A stretch of DNA of 64,000 nt from Candidatus Bipolaricaulis anaerobius (GTDB taxonomy: Bacteria > Bipolaricaulota > Bipolaricaulia > Bipolaricaulales > Bipolaricaulaceae): positions 868,001 through 932,000 of the forward strand of contig NZ_LS483254.1 of assembly GCF_900465355.1 (NCBI RefSeq). The letters are read 5' to 3'. The notes under the pieces are model-generated. The model saw nothing but the letters and a program-made list of their open reading frames with translations. It did no database searches and was not told where the DNA came from. The position numbers and the translations under genes are program-made. Within the stretch, counting starts at the first letter, position 1. Each line of letters starts with the position of its first letter. This document shows positions 30,932-39,263 of this stretch, one piece after another.

Positions 30932-31899
30932 TCACAGAACGAGACTTGATCGAGGCCCGGGAGGCATTTTGCCTTCTCCGGGAGAAGATTGCAGGCGTCA
31001 TCGTGGGCCAGGAGGAGGTCGTCGAGATCGCGCTGTGGGCGCTCCTCGCCCGGGGACACGTCCTCCTTGAGGGGGTGCCGGGGCTGGGGAAGACCCTCCT
31101 CGTGCGCTCGCTCGCCCGCGCGCTCGGTCTATCCTTCTCCCGCATCCAGTTCACCCCCGACCTCATGCCGGCCGACATCGTGGGCACGAACGTGTTCTCC
31201 GGGGACGGATTCCGGTTCCTGCCCGGGCCCGTGTTCGCCCACGTCGTGCTCGCCGACGAGGTGAACCGAGCCACGCCGAAGACCCAATCTGCCTTGCTGG
31301 AGGCGATGCAGGAGGGACAGGCCACGATCGGCACGGAGACCCATCCCTTGCCGAACCCGTTCACCGTGCTCGCCACCCAGAACCCGATCGAGATGGAGGG
31401 GACCTACCCCCTCCCCGAGGCCCAAGTGGATCGGTTCCTGTTCAAGGCCGAGGTGGGGTTCCCCGACGAGGGGGAGCTCGTGGAGATCGTGCGTCGGAAC
31501 ACGGAGGGCGTGGGGATCCGCCTTCCCGAGCCCATCCTCTCCGCGGACGCCGTGCGGCGCGCCCAGGCCGTGGTGGCGGAGTACCCTGTGCCACGGCCGC
31601 TCATGGAGTACGCGGCGGCCCTCGTCCTCGCCACCCATCCCAAGAGCCCCACCGCGCCGGAGGCGGTGCGGCGCTACGTCCAGTACGGGGCGAGCCCCCG
31701 GGGGGGCCTCGCCCTCATCCTGGGGGCCAAGGGGCGGGCGTTCCTCGCCGGCCGGCACCACGTGGGGGTGGAGGACATCCAGGCTGCGCTGCGGCCGGCG
31801 CTTGTGCACCGGGTCATCCCCAACTTCCGCGCCGACGCGGACGGCGTCGGGGCGGGCCAGCTCGTGGATGAGGCGGCCCGGGCGGTCCGCGTGCCATGA
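30928..31899 (+). CDS. MoxR-family AAA+ ATPase
   Basis: 323 residues, GTG start in GTGA overlap. Walker A LEGVPGLGKTLLV near residue 50, Walker B VVLADEVNRATPKTQSALLEAMQE, sensor-1 ATQNPIEMEGTYPLPEAQVDRF. These are the MoxR signature blocks. MoxR proteins act as chaperones that mature or activate partner proteins, commonly with vWA (MIDAS) domains encoded beside them, as here (DUF58 and two vWA genes follow). Confidence 0.93.
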   Translation: MITERDLIEAREAFCLLREKIAGVIVGQEEVVEIALWALLARGHVLLEGVPGLGKTLLVRSLARALGLSFSRIQFTPDLMPADIVGTNVFSGDGFRFLPGPVFAHVVLADEVNRATPKTQSALLEAMQEGQATIGTETHPLPNPFTVLATQNPIEMEGTYPLPEAQVDRFLFKAEVGFPDEGELVEIVRRNTEGVGIRLPEPILSADAVRRAQAVVAEYPVPRPLMEYAAALVLATHPKSPTAPEAVRRYVQYGASPRGGLALILGAKGRAFLAGRHHVGVEDIQAALRPALVHRVIPNFRADADGVGAGQLVDEAARAVRVP

Positions 31900-32762
31900 C
31901 CGATGGCCCCCTCTCCCCGTCCGAGTTGCGGGCCCTGGCGCGGGCCCGGATCACCCTCCGCCGGCCGGGGGGAACCCTCCCCGGTGGCCACCTCGCACGG
32001 CGCAAGGGGACATCCGTAGAGTTCGCCGACTACCGCCCCTATCAACCGGGGGACGACTTCCGCCTCATCGACTGGGCCGTGTACGCCCGCCACCGGCGGC
32101 TGGTGACGAAGACTTTCGCCCACGAGGTGGAGGCACCTCTGTACCTGTTCCTCGACACAAGCCGCTCGATGGGGGAGGGCAACAAGGCCTCGTTCGCACG
32201 GCGCCTCGCCGCGGCCCTCGCGTTCGTCGCCTACCGCGGCCAGGACCGGTTCGCGATCTACCCGTTCCGCGACGCGCTCGTCGCCACCCCGGCACCGCGC
32301 CGGGGGAGGGTTGCCCTCTCCACCGCGTTCCAGTCCCTCATGGAACTTTCCGCCGCGGGCGAGACCGACCTCCCCCGGTCCCTCGCCGCGTGGGCCGAAC
32401 TAGGGCCTGAGCCAGGCCTGTGCGTCCTCATCTCCGATTTCCTGTGTCCGGATGGGTACCGGGATGGGCTCCTCGCCCTCCGCCACGGCCGACATGCCGT
32501 GGCTTCGGTGCAGGTCCTGTCCGCGGCCGATCTCGATCCGCCCCGGTGGGGGGAGGTGCGGCTCCGCGACGTGGAGACCCACCGCGGGAAATCCCTCGTC
32601 CTCGGGGCAGGCGCAGCCCGCGCTTACCGCGCGGCACTCCGGGAGTGGAACGAGGGACTGGCCGCAGCATGTCGGGAGCTACGCATGGCCTACTTCCTGT
32701 TCCGGAGCGATGCCGCGCCGGTCGAGGCCGCGTTGACCGTCCTCGCGGGGTGGGGCCGGTGA
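31896..32762 (+). CDS. DUF58 / vWA-like protein
   Basis: 288 residues, ATG overlapping the MoxR stop. The DUF58 motif YQPGDDFRLIDW lies near residues 50-61, after the family's GTSVEFADYRPY. A vWA-like fold follows with LFLDTSRSM as the degenerate MIDAS (DxSxS). It has no membrane segment. DUF58 proteins always accompany MoxR and are thought to be its direct substrate or partner. Third gene of the coupled block. Confidence 0.9.
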   Translation: MTDGPLSPSELRALARARITLRRPGGTLPGGHLARRKGTSVEFADYRPYQPGDDFRLIDWAVYARHRRLVTKTFAHEVEAPLYLFLDTSRSMGEGNKASFARRLAAALAFVAYRGQDRFAIYPFRDALVATPAPRRGRVALSTAFQSLMELSAAGETDLPRSLAAWAELGPEPGLCVLISDFLCPDGYRDGLLALRHGRHAVASVQVLSAADLDPPRWGEVRLRDVETHRGKSLVLGAGAARAYRAALREWNEGLAAACRELRMAYFLFRSDAAPVEAALTVLAGWGR

Positions 32763-34414
32763 GCTTCCTCCTTCCGTGGGGATGGGCCTGGCTCACCTCC
32801 GGGCTGGTCGTGGTCGCCCTGTACCTCCTCCGGCGGCGGGAGCGGGAGGAGCCCGTGTCCGCCCTGTTCCTGTGGGAGAGGATCCCCCCCGATCGGGCGA
32901 GCCGCATGGCACGGCTGCGCGCCCGGTTCGACCTCCTGCTCCTCCTCCAACTCCTCGCGGTGACCCTGTTCGCGGTCGGCCTCGCCCACCCCATCGTCCG
33001 TGTCCCCCGCACCGCCGGGGCGACGGCGATCGTCCTCGATGGCTCAGCGTCGATGGCCGCAACGGGCCGGGCCGACGCGGCACTGGCTGAGGCCCGGCGG
33101 CTGATCGGGGATTCCTCTGGCCCGTGGTCGGTCGTGGTGTGGGCCGACCCGCCGCGGGTCCTCGTCCCGCGCACCGCGAACCGCGAGGAGGTCCTCGCCC
33201 TCCTTGGCGCGTACCGCCCCACCCTTGGCGCCCGACCGCCCCTCGGCGAGGCCCTTGCCCTCCTCCCCAGCGGGTTCGGCCGCACCGTCGTCATCACCGA
33301 TGACCCGCTTCCCGACCCCGGCGTGGAGATCGTCGCCCTCCCCGCCCTGGACAACCTGGCGATCGTCGCGTTCGCGGCCCGCTCAACCCCCGACGGGTCG
33401 GGGTACGAGGCCCTGGTGCGGGTCCGCAATGACACGGACCGGTACCAGGATGTCCAGGTGGCCGTCCACACCGGTGCGGGGACGTACCTCGGGTCGCGGC
33501 TCCTCTCGCCGGGGTCCGAGGATCGGTTCGTGTTCCAGATCGGGCTCGTCCAGACCTCGCTCCGTGCCGAACTCCTCCCCGAAGATGGGTTCCCATGGGA
33601 CAACGTGCGCTACGCCGCCCTTGAGGGAGGAGCCACGGTCCGCGTGCGGTGGGTGGGCGAGGAGGACCGCTACCTGTGGGCCGCCCTGCAGGCGGCGGTC
33701 CCCGTAGAACGGGTCGGCTCCGGGGGTTGGGATCTCACCGTGGCCGTGCGGACCGAGTTGCCCGTTGCCCCGCCCGGGCCCCTCCTCCTCGTCGGGGCGG
33801 GCTCTCCCGAGGCCTCCCTCGGCGAACCCGAGCCGGCCGGGCCGATCCGGGGCGAGGCATCGCCCCTCCTCCGCCACGTCGTCCCCGAGGAGTTCCGTGC
33901 CAGCGCCGTGCATCCGCTGACCCTCCCCCCCGACGCGACCGTGGACCTGTGGGCGGGGGATGCCCCGGCCCTCAGCCACTGGGAACGCACCGACGGGCGC
34001 CGGGTCCTCCTCACCCTGGACCTCCCCCGGTCCAACCTCCCCCTGACGGTGGACTTCCCGATCCTCCTCCGGAACGTGGTTACCTGGCTCCTGCCTTACC
34101 GGCCGCGGCCGACCCTCGTCGTGGGGGAAGCGATCGAACTGCCGCCGGGGACGGAGGTGAGCACCCCAGCCGGCCCGGTGAGTGGGGTGTGGATCCCCGA
34201 CCGACCTGGGCTGTACGAGCTCCGCGGGGCGCGGCGGGAGGTGATCGCCGTGAACGTGCCGTACGAAGAGTCCCTCCCCGGCCGGGTTGCGGTTCCCACC
34301 GCGGTCCCCATATCCAAGACCCTGGCTGATCTCACCGCCTGGCCGTGGCTCGGGGCGGCGGCCTTCCTCGTCCTCACTGCCGAGTGGGGCCTGGCGCGGC
34401 GGAGGGGGGTCTGA
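32759..34414 (+). CDS. BatA/BatB-like membrane vWA protein
   Basis: 551 residues from GTG 32759 (GTGA overlap with DUF58). The N-terminal BatA signature is clear: FLLPWGWAWLTSGLVVVALY then RRRREREEPVSALFLWER in the cytoplasmic loop (written in parts), and a second membrane segment near residues 60-75. A vWA domain follows with IVLDGSASM (MIDAS DxSxS). A large beta-rich exported region and a last membrane segment near the C-terminus complete it. Members of this group form a MoxR-dependent envelope complex of unknown task (stress or cell-shape functions are reported for relatives). Confidence 0.85.
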   Translation: MSFLLPWGWAWLTSGLVVVALYLLRRREREEPVSALFLWERIPPDRASRMARLRARFDLLLLLQLLAVTLFAVGLAHPIVRVPRTAGATAIVLDGSASMAATGRADAALAEARRLIGDSSGPWSVVVWADPPRVLVPRTANREEVLALLGAYRPTLGARPPLGEALALLPSGFGRTVVITDDPLPDPGVEIVALPALDNLAIVAFAARSTPDGSGYEALVRVRNDTDRYQDVQVAVHTGAGTYLGSRLLSPGSEDRFVFQIGLVQTSLRAELLPEDGFPWDNVRYAALEGGATVRVRWVGEEDRYLWAALQAAVPVERVGSGGWDLTVAVRTELPVAPPGPLLLVGAGSPEASLGEPEPAGPIRGEASPLLRHVVPEEFRASAVHPLTLPPDATVDLWAGDAPALSHWERTDGRRVLLTLDLPRSNLPLTVDFPILLRNVVTWLLPYRPRPTLVVGEAIELPPGTEVSTPAGPVSGVWIPDRPGLYELRGARREVIAVNVPYEESLPGRVAVPTAVPISKTLADLTAWPWLGAAAFLVLTAEWGLARRRGV

Positions 34415-36840
34415 TGCGCTTCCTCACCCCGTGGGCCCTTGCTGGGCTCGTGCCGGCCGTAGTCGTGCTCATCCTCTCCCTCCGCCGGCGGGCCCTCCTC
34501 GGACGGGCCGTGACGCTCGCCCTCCTCGCCCTCGCCCTCGCCGGCCCGGAGGTCGCCGTCCGCCAGACCGGGGAGACGGTCCTCTTCCTCGTCGACCGAT
34601 CGGCGAGCGTGGGCGAGGAGGCAACGAACGCCCTCCCCGAGCTCACTTCCTCCGTCCTCGCCCGCGGGGGGAAGGTCGGGGTGATCTCGTTCGCCGACGG
34701 GTCCCAGGTTTCGCAGTGGCCGGGGGTGGGCGAGATCCCGAACGGGGGAGCGTTCTCGTCGTTCGGGACCAACATCGGGGCGGCGGTGGACCTCGCGCTC
34801 GCCCTGGCCCCCGCTGGGGCGCAGATCGTGCTCCTGTCCGACGGCCGCGCGACAGGGGGGGACCTCCTCGCCGCTGCGGCGCGGGCCCGCAGCCAACGGG
34901 TTCCGATCCACGTCTGCTCCGTCGGCCAGACTGACCTCGTCCGGTTGGCTGAATTCACGGGTCCCCGCGAGGCGCCGCTGGGGACGATCGCCCTCGCCGC
35001 CACGGTCGAGGCTTCGCAGCCGACCGCGGCCACGGCCCATCTCTACCGGGGTGGTGAGGAGATCCGGGCCATTCCCCTCGACCTCCCTGCCGGGCGGACG
35101 CGCCTCTCCCTGGCCGATGCGCCCCCCGAGGCCGGGTTCTGGAGCTACCGGGTGGAGGTGAGGGCGAACGGCGATCGGATCCCTGAGAACAACGCCCTTC
35201 CGTGGGGGGTAGCCGTGGGCGAGCCGCCGGGGATCGTCGTCGTTGGGTTGGGTCCGACCGCGACCGACGAGCTCCTCACCGCGGCGGGGCTCACGTTCCG
35301 GCGGCGGGAGGCCCTCGCGGTGGAGGATTTGGCCGGAGCGGGGCTGGTGATCCTCGACGACTACCCCCTCGCGCTCCTCGGCACCCGCACCCTCGACGCG
35401 CTCCGGTCGTACGTCGCCGGGGGGGGCGGGCTCCTCGTCATCCAGGGTCGCCAGGCCGTGGCCGGCTACCTCGGCCCCGTCGAGGAACTGCTTCCCGTGA
35501 CCTACACCGTCCCCGAGCGGGTCCAGGAGGCGACGGCAGCGGTGGTGTTCGTCCTCGACCGGTCTAGCTCGATGTCCGCCCAGGCCGGAGGCGCGACGAA
35601 GATCGACCTCCTCAAAGAGGCCGCCGCGGCCGCGGTGGAGGCAATGCCGGGGGAGGACATCGTCGGTGCGGTCGCATTCGACCGGTATCCACAGTGGATC
35701 GTGCGCCCGGGCCCCGTGTCCGAGGTCCGCGAGGAGCTGTTTGAGGGGCTGCGCAGGCTGACCGCAGACGGGGGGACATACCTGTTCACCGCCCTCGACC
35801 AGGCGGTGAAGGCCCTCCTCCCGCTCGAGGCCCGCGTCCGCCACGCGATCGTGATCTCCGACGGGAAGACGATCCGCGACGAGGCCGCCCTGAGCGCGCT
35901 CCTCGCAGAGGTGAGCGAAACGGGGGTCGGCGTGACGACGATCGCCATCGGGACCGATCCCGATCCTGAGGTCCTCCGCACGCTGGCCGAGGTGAGTGGG
36001 GGGCGGTCCTATGAACTGGCGGCGATGACCGATCTCCGGCCGGTGCTCGTGCAGGAGACGGAGCGCGTGTCCCGCCCCCGGTTCATGGAGCGGGAGACGG
36101 CCGTCCTCCCCGGACCGGGGGCTACCGCGTTCCCTCTATCGGGGGAGCTCCCCCCCCTTGCCGGCTACACCCTCACCTTCCCCAAGCCCACCGCCGACGT
36201 CGCGTTCCTCTCGCCCGCCGGCGATCCCCTCCTCGCCCGCTGGCGGGTCGGCCTCGGGCAGGTGGCGGTGCTCAACGCTGACATGTCTGGGATCTGGACG
36301 AGGGATTGGCTCCGCTCCCCCCAGCTCGGCGAGCTGTGGGGCCTCCTCCTTGGGCATCTGTGGGGCGAGCGGCAGCGCGTGCGCGTGGACTGGGAGGTCG
36401 TCGGGCCGACCCTGCGCCTGGGGGTGGAGGCGGCCGAGGGCGGGCGGTGGACGAACCGCCTCGAGCTCACTGGCGAGCTCGTCGGTCCCCGCAGATCGTG
36501 GTCGCTTTCCTTCGAGCAGGTCGCACCGGGGCGGTACGAGGCCTCCCTCGCTACCCCTGGGTCCGGGGCGTACCTCCTCACGGTGAGCGAGCCCTCCGGC
36601 CGCTACGGGGGGTCGTTCCCGGTCGTCCTCCCCTACTCGGCCGAGCTCGCCGCGTTCGGTCCCGACCTCGACGCCCTGAGTACGATCGCGCGCCTGTCAG
36701 GGGGCGAGTTCGTGCGCGACGAGCTCCTCCCCCCCTCATCGGGGGCGGGGCGAGCGTGGACCCCGATCGGCCGGGCCCTCCTCTGGGCAGCGGCGTGTTC
36801 CCTCCTCCTCGATCTCGCATTGCGCAAACTTCTCGTGTAG
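34414..36840 (+). CDS. large membrane protein with two vWA-type domains
   Basis: 808 residues from ATG 34414 (its A is the last base of the previous stop). Membrane segments near residues 5-20 and 28-45, then a first vWA-like region with FLVDRSASV (Asp61) and LLSDGRAT, then a glutamine-amidotransferase-like Rossmann region, then a full vWA domain with FVLDRSSSM (Asp382-Ser386) and ISDGKT. A C-terminal membrane helix (LLWAAACSLLLDLAL) ends it. Relatives are large exported vWA proteins of MoxR operons. Last gene of the operon; no strong terminator was seen after it. Confidence 0.83.
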   Translation: MRFLTPWALAGLVPAVVVLILSLRRRALLGRAVTLALLALALAGPEVAVRQTGETVLFLVDRSASVGEEATNALPELTSSVLARGGKVGVISFADGSQVSQWPGVGEIPNGGAFSSFGTNIGAAVDLALALAPAGAQIVLLSDGRATGGDLLAAAARARSQRVPIHVCSVGQTDLVRLAEFTGPREAPLGTIALAATVEASQPTAATAHLYRGGEEIRAIPLDLPAGRTRLSLADAPPEAGFWSYRVEVRANGDRIPENNALPWGVAVGEPPGIVVVGLGPTATDELLTAAGLTFRRREALAVEDLAGAGLVILDDYPLALLGTRTLDALRSYVAGGGGLLVIQGRQAVAGYLGPVEELLPVTYTVPERVQEATAAVVFVLDRSSSMSAQAGGATKIDLLKEAAAAAVEAMPGEDIVGAVAFDRYPQWIVRPGPVSEVREELFEGLRRLTADGGTYLFTALDQAVKALLPLEARVRHAIVISDGKTIRDEAALSALLAEVSETGVGVTTIAIGTDPDPEVLRTLAEVSGGRSYELAAMTDLRPVLVQETERVSRPRFMERETAVLPGPGATAFPLSGELPPLAGYTLTFPKPTADVAFLSPAGDPLLARWRVGLGQVAVLNADMSGIWTRDWLRSPQLGELWGLLLGHLWGERQRVRVDWEVVGPTLRLGVEAAEGGRWTNRLELTGELVGPRRSWSLSFEQVAPGRYEASLATPGSGAYLLTVSEPSGRYGGSFPVVLPYSAELAAFGPDLDALSTIARLSGGEFVRDELLPPSSGAGRAWTPIGRALLWAAACSLLLDLALRKLLV

Positions 36841-36907: not shown

Positions 36908-36937
36908 TTGACGATCCGGCATCGTCCGCTGTATGAT
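36908..36937 (+). promoter_or_regulatory. promoter of the 36-aa peptide gene
   Basis: TTGACG (36908-36913), 18-bp spacer, TATGAT (36932-36937). One of the best consensus matches in the window. A start near 36944 leaves a leader of about 120 nt before the ATG. Confidence 0.65.
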
Positions 36938-37062
36938 CTCAACCACGGGTAACGAAAGTCACAAAAAGGGGGTTGAGAGTAGAACCAATTAGCTTGTGGG
37001 AGTTCACAGCGTCTGGAGATCGTTCAAGTGCAGGCATACAACGCGATCTAAAGGAGGAAACG
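36938..37062 (+). other. long 5' leader of the peptide gene with inverted repeat
   Basis: About 120 nt between promoter and ATG, unusually long and AT-richer than the window. CTCAACC (36938-36944) can pair with GGTTGAG (36971-36977). Ends with aaaggagga before the ATG. No known riboswitch was recognised; a c-di-GMP (GEMM) fit was tried and failed. Confidence 0.4.
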
Positions 37063-37173
37063 ATGAAGTGGGGAGAGAAGGTTACGCAGAGGCTGGGCGT
37101 TCGTGGGTTGTACGTTGTTCTTGCCATTACGCTCCTCGCCATCCTGAGCGGGGCTCACCACAAGTGGGGGTAG
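37063..37173 (+). CDS. 36-aa membrane or secreted small peptide
   Basis: MKWGEKVTQRLGVRG, then a hydrophobic helix (LYVVLAITLLAILSG), then the short polar tail AHHKWG. Basic N-terminus, about 15 hydrophobic residues, a small-residue site (SGA) and a five-to-seven residue tail: it reads like a signal peptide with a tiny cargo, or a single-span membrane peptide. Supports for a real gene: excellent ribosome site (aaaggagga, 6 nt before ATG), near-consensus promoter, and a strong terminator 40 nt after the stop. The next gene is a membrane HD-GYP protein. No family recognised. Confidence 0.6.
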   Translation: MKWGEKVTQRLGVRGLYVVLAITLLAILSGAHHKWG

Positions 37174-37213
37174 GGTAGCCTACAAGGTCACAGGTAACCC
37201 AGGTTGATGCCAG

Positions 37214-37243
37214 GGGGGGTGGTGACCCCCCTTACTTCTTTCT
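37214..37243 (+). terminator. rho-independent terminator of the peptide gene
   Basis: GGGGGGT/ACCCCCC stem (37214-37220 with 37225-37231), loop GGTG, followed by a T-rich tail (ttacttctttct). It ends 11 nt before the HD-GYP start codon, so it may also control read-through into that gene. Confidence 0.75.
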
Positions 37244-37254
37244 AGGCTCCCAGG

Positions 37255-38508
37255 GTGACAGCTTTGCCTCGGAAAGCCCGCGTATATTGGGGTCTGGTTG
37301 TGGCGGCAGGCTTGGTATGCTGCGTCTTCTACCTGAGTCAAATCAAGCTTACTTCCGAGTTTGCCCTGACCTGGATCTTGCTTGTGGTCGTCGACTTCCT
37401 TGCCGAGATCTACGAGGTGGAGTTGATCCCGGAGAGAAGGACGTCAGTGGCTGTATCGGTTGGCGCCGCCGCCGTTTTCATCGGCGGAGCTCCACTAGGG
37501 ATCGCGACGTTATGCGTCGGGTCGCTGGCAGCTGAGGTTCTTCTGCGGTGGAACAAGCTGGCCCGGGGGCCGGGGAAGTTCTTCACCTTTGTCGGATTCA
37601 ACCTCGGCCAACTCATGATCTCGGTCACGGCGGCGGGCCTCGTCCTCGAAGCTATGGGTGGAGCTCCTCCGCCCTACGCCTCCGGGACAGACTTCATCCC
37701 TCTGGTGGTGGCGTTCCTGACCTACGACATTGTCAATGCGTCACTCGTGGCGATGATCCTCCACCTCACGGAGGGGGTGCGCTTCACCTACCTTCTCCGG
37801 TTCGACCTTCGTCATCTCCACGTTCAGTTCCTAACCTTGGGAGTACTAGCGATCCTGATGGCGATCGTGTACCCCCTCTCCCCATGGTACGTGCTCCTCG
37901 TGGGGAGCCCGCTCATGGTCGTCCAGATTTCCATCCGCAGCTACGCACGGCTGCGCCAGCAAGCCAAGGAGGCGTTCGAGAGGATCACCCGGATCGTCGG
38001 GGAACGTGACTTCTACACCGGGACCCACTCTGCGAACGTGGCCGAGCTCGCCGTGAAACTGACCCGGAAGCTGCGGCTGCCGGATGAAGTGGTGGACCAG
38101 GTCGAGGCCGCAGCCCGCGTCCACGATCTGGGCAAGATCGCGATCCCGGACAGCATCCTTCTCAAGCCAGGGAAGCTCACCGCGGAGGAGTGGGCACTGG
38201 TGAAGCGCCACCCCGTCGTCGGGGCGGAACTCCTCCAGGGGCTAGAGATTTACGAGGAGATCGCGGATGTCGTGCGGCACGAGCACGAGCACTGGGATGG
38301 CGGGGGATACCCCGATGGGCTGAGCGGGGAGAAAATCCCCTTGGGGTCGCGGATCATCGCCGTGGCCGATGTGTGGAGCGCCCTCACCACCGACCGCCCC
38401 TACCGCCCAGCCTACACCGCAGACGAGGCGCGCACGATCCTCAAGGCCATGGCGGAGAAGGAGCTCGATCCCAAGCTCGTGGACCTCTTCCTCACGGTCG
38501 TGAACTGA
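37255..38508 (+). CDS. membrane HD-GYP protein, putative c-di-GMP phosphodiesterase
   Basis: 417 residues. The N-terminal half has six or seven membrane segments with long loops (about residues 10-225), an uncharacterised sensor-like membrane domain. A linker helix (SYARLRQQAKEAFERI) joins it to an HD-GYP domain: HSANVAELA, VHDLGKIAIPDSIL with His290-Asp291, HEHWDGGGYPDG with Gly351-Pro353 and ADVWSALTTDRPYR. All metal and GYP residues are intact, so activity on c-di-GMP is likely. GTG 37255 has a weak ribosome site directly after a terminator. The less GC-rich codon use of its first half differs from neighbours. Confidence 0.85.
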   Translation: MTALPRKARVYWGLVVAAGLVCCVFYLSQIKLTSEFALTWILLVVVDFLAEIYEVELIPERRTSVAVSVGAAAVFIGGAPLGIATLCVGSLAAEVLLRWNKLARGPGKFFTFVGFNLGQLMISVTAAGLVLEAMGGAPPPYASGTDFIPLVVAFLTYDIVNASLVAMILHLTEGVRFTYLLRFDLRHLHVQFLTLGVLAILMAIVYPLSPWYVLLVGSPLMVVQISIRSYARLRQQAKEAFERITRIVGERDFYTGTHSANVAELAVKLTRKLRLPDEVVDQVEAAARVHDLGKIAIPDSILLKPGKLTAEEWALVKRHPVVGAELLQGLEIYEEIADVVRHEHEHWDGGGYPDGLSGEKIPLGSRIIAVADVWSALTTDRPYRPAYTADEARTILKAMAEKELDPKLVDLFLTVVN

Positions 38509-38669: not shown

Positions 38670-39263
38670 ATGCCGCTCCTCTGGGCCGTCGGGATCGGGA
38701 TCGTGGCCGGGCTCATCCGCCGAGGGAACTTGGCGAACCTCGGCCAGCTCAGGCTGCGCGCTCCCTGGTTGATCCTCATCGCCCTCTTGATCCAGGTCCT
38801 CATCTTTCCCGTGGGGACCAGGGGCCCCCTCATCCCCGGGGGCACAGCCTACCTCCACCTCGTCTCCTATGCCTCCCTTGCGGCATTCATCGGACTGAAC
38901 CGCCGCTACTCGGAGTTCCTCATCATGGGGGTGGGGCTGGCCCTCAACCTGATCGTGGTCGCCGCCAACGGGGGATACATGCCGGCCTCGGCGACGGCCC
39001 TCGACCGGGCCGGGCTGTCCGAGGTGGCGGCCGCCCTCCAGGAAGGAGGCCGGTCGGGAAACACGATCCTCATGGGCGAGGGAACGCGCCTCAACTTCCT
39101 CGGGGACTTCCTCTACCTCCCGGGGGGGGTCCCCCTCGCCTCAGCGTTCAGCATCGGAGATATCGTCCTAGGCCTGGGGTTGGCCGTGCTCCTCGCCCGG
39201 CGCATGGTCAACCGGGCTAGACCCAACCATCAAGGGACAGGTTCGGATCCGGCACCAGGGTGA
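38670..39263 (+). CDS. DUF5317 membrane protein
   Basis: 197 residues, four or so membrane segments (for example LLWAVGIGIVAGLI, WLILIALLIQVLIF, AYLHLVSYASLAAFIGL, VLGLGLAVLL). The middle holds the DUF5317 signature NGGYMPASATALDRAG, followed by a loop with GEGTRLNFLGDFLYLP. Function of the family unknown. ATG 38670 follows gatgagggg closely. The 3' end overlaps the convergent tsaD by 47 nt. The 161-bp stretch before it (38509-38669) holds only a 7-bp hairpin at 38558-38577. Confidence 0.8.
   Translation: MPLLWAVGIGIVAGLIRRGNLANLGQLRLRAPWLILIALLIQVLIFPVGTRGPLIPGGTAYLHLVSYASLAAFIGLNRRYSEFLIMGVGLALNLIVVAANGGYMPASATALDRAGLSEVAAALQEGGRSGNTILMGEGTRLNFLGDFLYLPGGVPLASAFSIGDIVLGLGLAVLLARRMVNRARPNHQGTGSDPAPG

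Follow-up and report, generated by a model that had tools for sequence, protein, structure and literature searches.

A 36-codon gene beside a MASE9-type sensor gene in Candidatus Bipolaricaulis anaerobius: a candidate peptide-signal precursor in a recurring three-gene module

A gene of 36 codons in Candidatus Bipolaricaulis anaerobius may well encode a short peptide signal in precursor form; its locus would then be one copy of a widespread module composed of the peptide, a MASE9-type sensor that reads the peptide's C-terminal tail and a DUF5317 membrane protein; we put the probability of this reading at roughly 0.55. Comparison of genomes shows that the open reading frame is a genuine gene under selection and linked to the sensor gene, with DUF5317 as a constant third partner, and that the tail stays constant between tandem copies while changing between species. 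Release of the peptide, its binding by the sensor and an effect on phosphodiesterase activity are steps that we infer from sequence.

The small gene and its neighbours

The host genome is a single contig of 1.32 Mb, and the window is the whole stretch of 64,000 nucleotides analysed here, to which all coordinates refer. The features of the locus are as follows.

36908..36937, forward strand: promoter-like site of the small gene (TTGACG, 18 nt, TATGAT; 10/12 in a consensus scan)
36944..37062, forward strand: leader of about 119 nt (AAGGAGG at 37051-37057, 5 nt before the ATG)
37063..37173, forward strand: small peptide gene, 36 aa (translation; homologs phylum-wide; pN/pS 0.33)
37147..37170, forward strand: conserved C-terminal tail SGA-HHKWG, which may hold both the signal and a processing site (K34/W35 invariance; synonymous change in arrays)
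37212..37233, forward strand: terminator-like hairpin between the peptide and sensor genes (9-bp stem, 4-nt loop, then ACTTCTTTCT)
37255..38508, forward strand: sensor gene, with a MASE9-like membrane domain of several helices (about residues 1-235) and an HD-GYP domain (246-408) (PF13487, MASE9 profile, AF2)
38670..39263, forward strand: membrane protein of 197 aa belonging to DUF5317, the third member of the module (PF17248, E = 3e-35, 121.9 bits against a cut-off of 25)

An earlier note on this DNA had described a near-consensus promoter, a leader of about 120 nt and an ideal ribosome site, and all three were borne out. The promoter-like site is one of two found in the region against 0.2 expected from shuffles, and its TTGACG and TATGAT hexamers are identical in the relative G007. 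The note had also described a strong terminator; the hairpin is present and is kept in G007, but its strength is only fair, since a scan for terminator-like sites returned four against 1.6 expected by chance, three of the four being this same hairpin, and the tract 3′ of it is moderately T-rich. The leader matched no Rfam family and folded no better than its shuffles (z = -0.03), and a riboswitch or other structured leader was dropped on these grounds.

The translated product, MKWGEKVTQRLGVRGLYVVLAITLLAILSGAHHKWG, has an N-terminal MKWG and basic region, a hydrophobic core at residues 16-28 and the tail SGAHHKWG. Pooled over nine genus-level sequences, pN/pS was 0.33 in frame compared with 0.94 and 3.4 in the shifted frames and 0.99 on the reverse strand. 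By this measure the 36-codon frame is under purifying selection and is a real gene, of a kind that annotation pipelines would overlook. Searched against Pfam and NCBIfam, the peptide matched no family above noise, and membership of a known peptide family was dropped. The genes upstream of the module (31896-36840 in the window) resemble a BatA/VWA-type aerotolerance operon (DUF58 and VWA proteins) and show no apparent link to the module.

The sensor contains an HD_5 domain (PF13487, E = 9e-42, 143 bits) with HD and GYP motifs present, and the closest solved relative of this half is 4mcw (E = 8e-39). The earlier description of a multi-pass membrane domain joined to an intact HD-GYP thus stands for the multi-TM domain and for the domain match, and needs amending on "intact": the HHExxDGxGYP metal motif (window 38220-38330) reads EHEHWDGGGYP, with EHE for HHE. 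This change of the first His to Glu is common to most of the subfamily and could possibly affect the metal content or activity of the domain.

The MASE9 profile (PF20972) scored 13.7 bits against the sensor in the window, where the gathering cut-off is 24.3, and matched the membrane domain in most relatives (23/28, E up to 1; best E 1.2e-5). In the AF2 model of the sensor (pLDDT 88.9), the best fold matches of the membrane half, after HD folds, were the ECF-transporter S-components FolT (TMt 0.60), BioY (0.57) and RibU (0.55); the best of these had a probability of 0.98 but was weak, with an E of 0.26 (0.26 or more for all). The model thus points weakly to a resemblance to these ligand-binding proteins, which in transporters bind small ligands from outside. 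The helical fold predicted here (TMt 0.5-0.6) differs from S-components in that there is no sequence family match and in that it is fused to HD-GYP or kinase domains rather than paired with an ECF module. A search of the open-access literature found no relevant work on MASE9 and no published function for it.

The DUF5317 protein gave an AF2 model with a pLDDT of 90.9, for which a search of the PDB returned no fold match. Its invariant residues are N77, N93, N100, D146 and D164. In two Actinomycetota loci, L304 and L318, a single reading frame joins DUF5317 to an MFS transporter (MFS_1/MFS_3), a hint, at the level of domain architecture, of a role in transport or export. Further long open frames containing DUF5317 were also seen. 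Nothing on DUF5317 was found in the open-access literature.

Pairing with the sensor and selection on the tail in Bipolaricaulota

Homologs of the peptide lie directly 5′ of the orthologous sensor gene across genus, family and class, next to sensors as little as 42-47% identical. In an alignment of 20 diverse peptides, W3, K34 and W35 were invariant and M1, K2, L19, L28 and A31 nearly so; in Bipolaricaulota K and W thus recur at both ends of the peptide, and the net charge of the N-terminus is positive in nearly all peptides. The guess in the earlier note would have been refuted had the small frame not been kept next to HD-GYP homologs, and on this point it came through very strongly, with relatives throughout the phylum. 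When a peptide profile and the sensor membrane domain were counted in 100 Bipolaricaulota genomes (most of the genomes surveyed being MAGs), presence or absence of the two agreed in 90, with both found in 67 and neither in 23. In the remaining ten (G008, G014, G023, G027, G038, G041, G046, G062, G063 and G086) the lone member always sat at a contig end, as would be expected if arrays of repeats interrupt the assembly; on this ground a broken association in some genomes was dropped. With the mismatches counted, the co-occurrence has a Fisher p of 3e-13, a descriptive value because the genomes are related.

Using the Pfam model, DUF5317 was detected in 72/72 genomes with the sensor and in 10/28 without it. 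Its gene usually lies immediately downstream of the sensor gene and in a few genomes is on a different contig. Because of these few, and of the ten sensor-less carriers, the link between peptide and sensor is the tightest of the module. At one locus (L200, G008:C26) two peptide copies are separated by about 8 kb; the second is at a contig end, whereas the first has no sensor nearby and may be an orphan gene, which counts against the signal reading.

Many loci carry tandem arrays of two to five peptide copies. Within 16 arrays, identity between copies was 61% for the leaders, 85% for the hydrophobic core and 96% for the tail, taken from five residues before KW onward, and the tails differ between species. 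The codons of the tails showed 67 synonymous and 6 nonsynonymous differences, whereas the preceding 19 codons showed 112 and 149 (Fisher p 6e-15, for pairs that are not independent); in G094, 10 of 12 tail codons differ synonymously between two copies and the amino acids are unchanged. The many synonymous and few nonsynonymous differences indicate protein-level selection on the tails and not recent copying, and gene conversion as the source of identical tails was dropped because there are too many synonymous differences. As judged from these codon counts, selection keeps every copy in a given genome to the same tail, which is what reading by a single receptor would predict. The part of the peptide to which the earlier note had drawn attention (about AHHKWG) is thus the part that array evolution marks as being under protein-level selection.

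Compared with Sec signal peptides cut by signal peptidase I, which have a basic n-region, a hydrophobic core and small residues at -3 and -1, the peptides give a mixed picture: the n-region is positively charged and an SGA/GGA motif is frequent, yet in some Bipolaricaulota tails Glu replaces the Ala of SGA (LAENIKWRPGGR, MSETLKWRPG). These Glu variants exclude a single universal cleavage point after the Ala of SGA, and the proposal that cleavage always follows SGA was dropped.

Occurrence outside Bipolaricaulota

The module was also found in Bacillota, Actinomycetota and Chloroflexota, in which peptides of 21-36 aa, consisting of a hydrophobic core, GGA or SGA and a short aromatic/basic tail, lie beside MASE9-type sensors. 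The outputs of these sensors include HD-GYP, histidine kinase (HisKA), GAF and GGDEF-EAL domains, and the gene order is peptide-sensor-DUF5317, DUF5317-peptide-sensor or sensor-DUF5317-peptide. A GTDB genome scan with the full sensor protein had found the same sensor type in other phyla, several loci having an upstream small ORF that ends in SGA-x-x-KW. A search that started from DUF5317 found it in 90/300 genomes from the phylum of a Clostridiales MAG and in 93/297 from the phylum of an Actinomycetota MAG, with the loci drawn mainly from the better-scoring matches.

Among 40 Bacillota loci, 26 of the 38 MASE9 genes had a peptide of 21-36 aa with core, GGA and tail no more than 420 nt upstream (for example MKNLLWILLTLMALAMAGGANYRW and MLKVLVALVSLVLAGGAHVKW), and ORFs with this motif total only 27 in 556 strand-kb. 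A looser detector found a small ORF upstream of 31/38 MASE9 genes compared with 12/73 control genes; the detection of short ORFs needs a Shine-Dalgarno site, and some starts are missed. Desulfotruncus arcticus DSM 17038, which is in culture, carries sensor, DUF5317 and the peptide MRRWYPVLVIMAFILSSIAGHKW (loci L133 and L237). In Actinomycetota, MSKRLLVAMSSLAALVLSAGANVSWIR and other peptides precede MASE9-HD-GYP genes, and one precedes a GGDEF-EAL protein. The peptides of both Bacillota and Actinomycetota lack the N-terminal KW and retain the C-terminal motif; an N-terminal MKW as a universal motif was dropped because outside Bipolaricaulota only the C-terminal motif persists.

Searching 350 Chloroflexota genomes for the peptide only gave 25 matches; 13 have a MASE9 sensor as neighbour and another 4 have DUF5317 but no MASE9 (17/25). 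The sensors of this phylum include histidine-kinase and GAF versions. Some Chloroflexota peptides thus adjoin DUF5317 or GAF proteins with no MASE9 gene in view, which counts against the signal reading. At L253, L258 and L263 the peptides have longer aromatic tails (SGANFADGVFAWSW, SGANWFNFGFFGWGW and AGAQWTDAFASTDWADFF) and precede reading frames, one of them GAF-like by eye, with no MASE9 or DUF5317 gene in view, and may represent a further branch. Several other Chloroflexota loci (L229, L245, L247, L250 and L254) encode, immediately 5′ of the peptide, a conserved protein of some 200 aa that contains the motif I-x-EIHV...PKQIVRDIES.

A candidate peptide signal and its alternatives

According to the proposed model, the positive N-terminus would stay inside and the hydrophobic core would cross the membrane (N-in/C-out, as the positive charge of the N-terminus suggests), so that the tail SGAHHKWG would face outward. 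The tail would then either be cut near the small-residue SGA/GGA motif, in the manner of signal peptidase I, or stay anchored and be displayed. The sensor's membrane domain, S-component-like in the model and facing outward, would bind the tail and so alter HD-GYP activity and with it the level of c-di-GMP; DUF5317 may process, export or co-sense the peptide, and additional array copies would supply a higher dose of one identical peptide. The guess in the earlier note, a peptide signal paired with a c-di-GMP receptor, is in this way partly supported, through the conserved pairing of peptide and sensor and the selected tail; it did not mention DUF5317, tandem arrays or the presence of the module in other phyla and with other output domains. 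More tentatively, and with slightly less than even confidence, we suggest that the peptides form a multi-phylum family of cell-cell (or self-sensing) signals with precursors of 21-50 aa missed by gene callers, in which DUF5317 proteins mature or export the peptides and MASE9 domains are receptors coupled directly to histidine kinases or to the turnover of c-di-GMP.

The main rival casts the peptide as a single-helix mini-subunit that is never cleaved. Packed against the MASE9 domain (or DUF5317), it would determine how stable or active that partner is, with the KW at its ends as interfacial anchors. We regard this as less likely than a signal but as a serious competitor: a peptide of this length spans a bilayer, and one of 21 aa might just as well be an ordinary transmembrane helix; the K and W found at both ends in Bipolaricaulota are residues typical of the membrane interface; co-occurrence with the sensor is strict; and the small SGA/GGA motifs also fit helix packing. 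However, a structural helix should conserve its membrane core, and in the arrays the tail is kept while the core varies more. Up to five copies with diverged leaders would be odd for a stoichiometric subunit, and the retention of the C-terminal motif where the N-terminal KW is absent, in Bacillota and Actinomycetota, also speaks against it. Because the tail and not the membrane core is held constant, the array data favour a signal over such a subunit.

Hydrophobic small ORFs in arrays with a membrane partner also resemble, in outline, some type I toxins and bacteriocin clusters, with DUF5317 as the immunity protein and the HD-GYP gene as a regulator. This seems improbable, since the constant partner is the MASE9 sensor and not DUF5317 alone, tails are species-linked and preserved through synonymous change, and no killing feature was identified. 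The ORF precedes the sensor gene and a hairpin separates the two, an arrangement that would suit an attenuator-like leader peptide that controls the HD-GYP gene by being translated, but the amino-acid sequence is under selection, as is the tail from copy to copy, the leader RNA is unstructured, and in some Bacillota (L233, L237 and L244) the peptide follows DUF5317, away from the sensor start; we consider this less probable still. A chance ORF beside an unrelated HD-GYP gene, for which nothing speaks but small size, is already refuted by conservation across families and phyla, by pN/pS and by co-occurrence.

Like the agr system (AgrD propeptide, AgrB membrane protease and AgrC receptor), the candidate signal module comprises, in outline, three neighbouring genes for a small membrane-bound propeptide, a membrane protein of about 200 aa and a multi-TM receptor with a cytoplasmic output. 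It differs in that AgrB is absent and the neighbouring membrane protein matches only DUF5317, in that the peptide has no conserved Cys or thiolactone-type core, its invariant residues being W3, K34 and W35, and in that the receptor is MASE9 plus HD-GYP, without homology to the AgrC kinase. Perhaps, by analogy, the module works like agr; it is not a member, as no agr components are common to both. A very short mature peptide at the C-terminus of a small secreted precursor would recall RRNPP/Phr, SHP and signal-peptide-derived pheromones, but RRNPP peptides are re-imported to cytosolic TPR receptors, whereas the partner here is a membrane MASE9-like and HD-GYP protein. DbfQ, a small exported protein encoded beside a membrane sensor, is reported to regulate that sensor; compared by description, it differs in being a periplasmic regulator of a two-component system, DbfRS (PMC12714742).

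No peptide/HD-GYP pair was found in the open-access literature, nor was the link between peptide, DUF5317 and MASE9 found described there. If our reading is right, the mechanism would be of a known kind, peptide signalling, with new parts. Two uncharacterised families, DUF5317 and MASE9, would gain functions, as would hundreds of micro-genes that lack annotation; a c-di-GMP phosphodiesterase would be reading a peptide input from outside the cell directly; and peptide signalling would be placed in Bipolaricaulota and Chloroflexota, phyla without a record of it in the literature found. What MASE-type membrane sensors sense would become directly testable with short synthetic peptides. DUF5317 was present in 2 of 14 named control genomes, those of Thermotoga maritima and Thermus composti, so a carrier tractable in the laboratory may exist.
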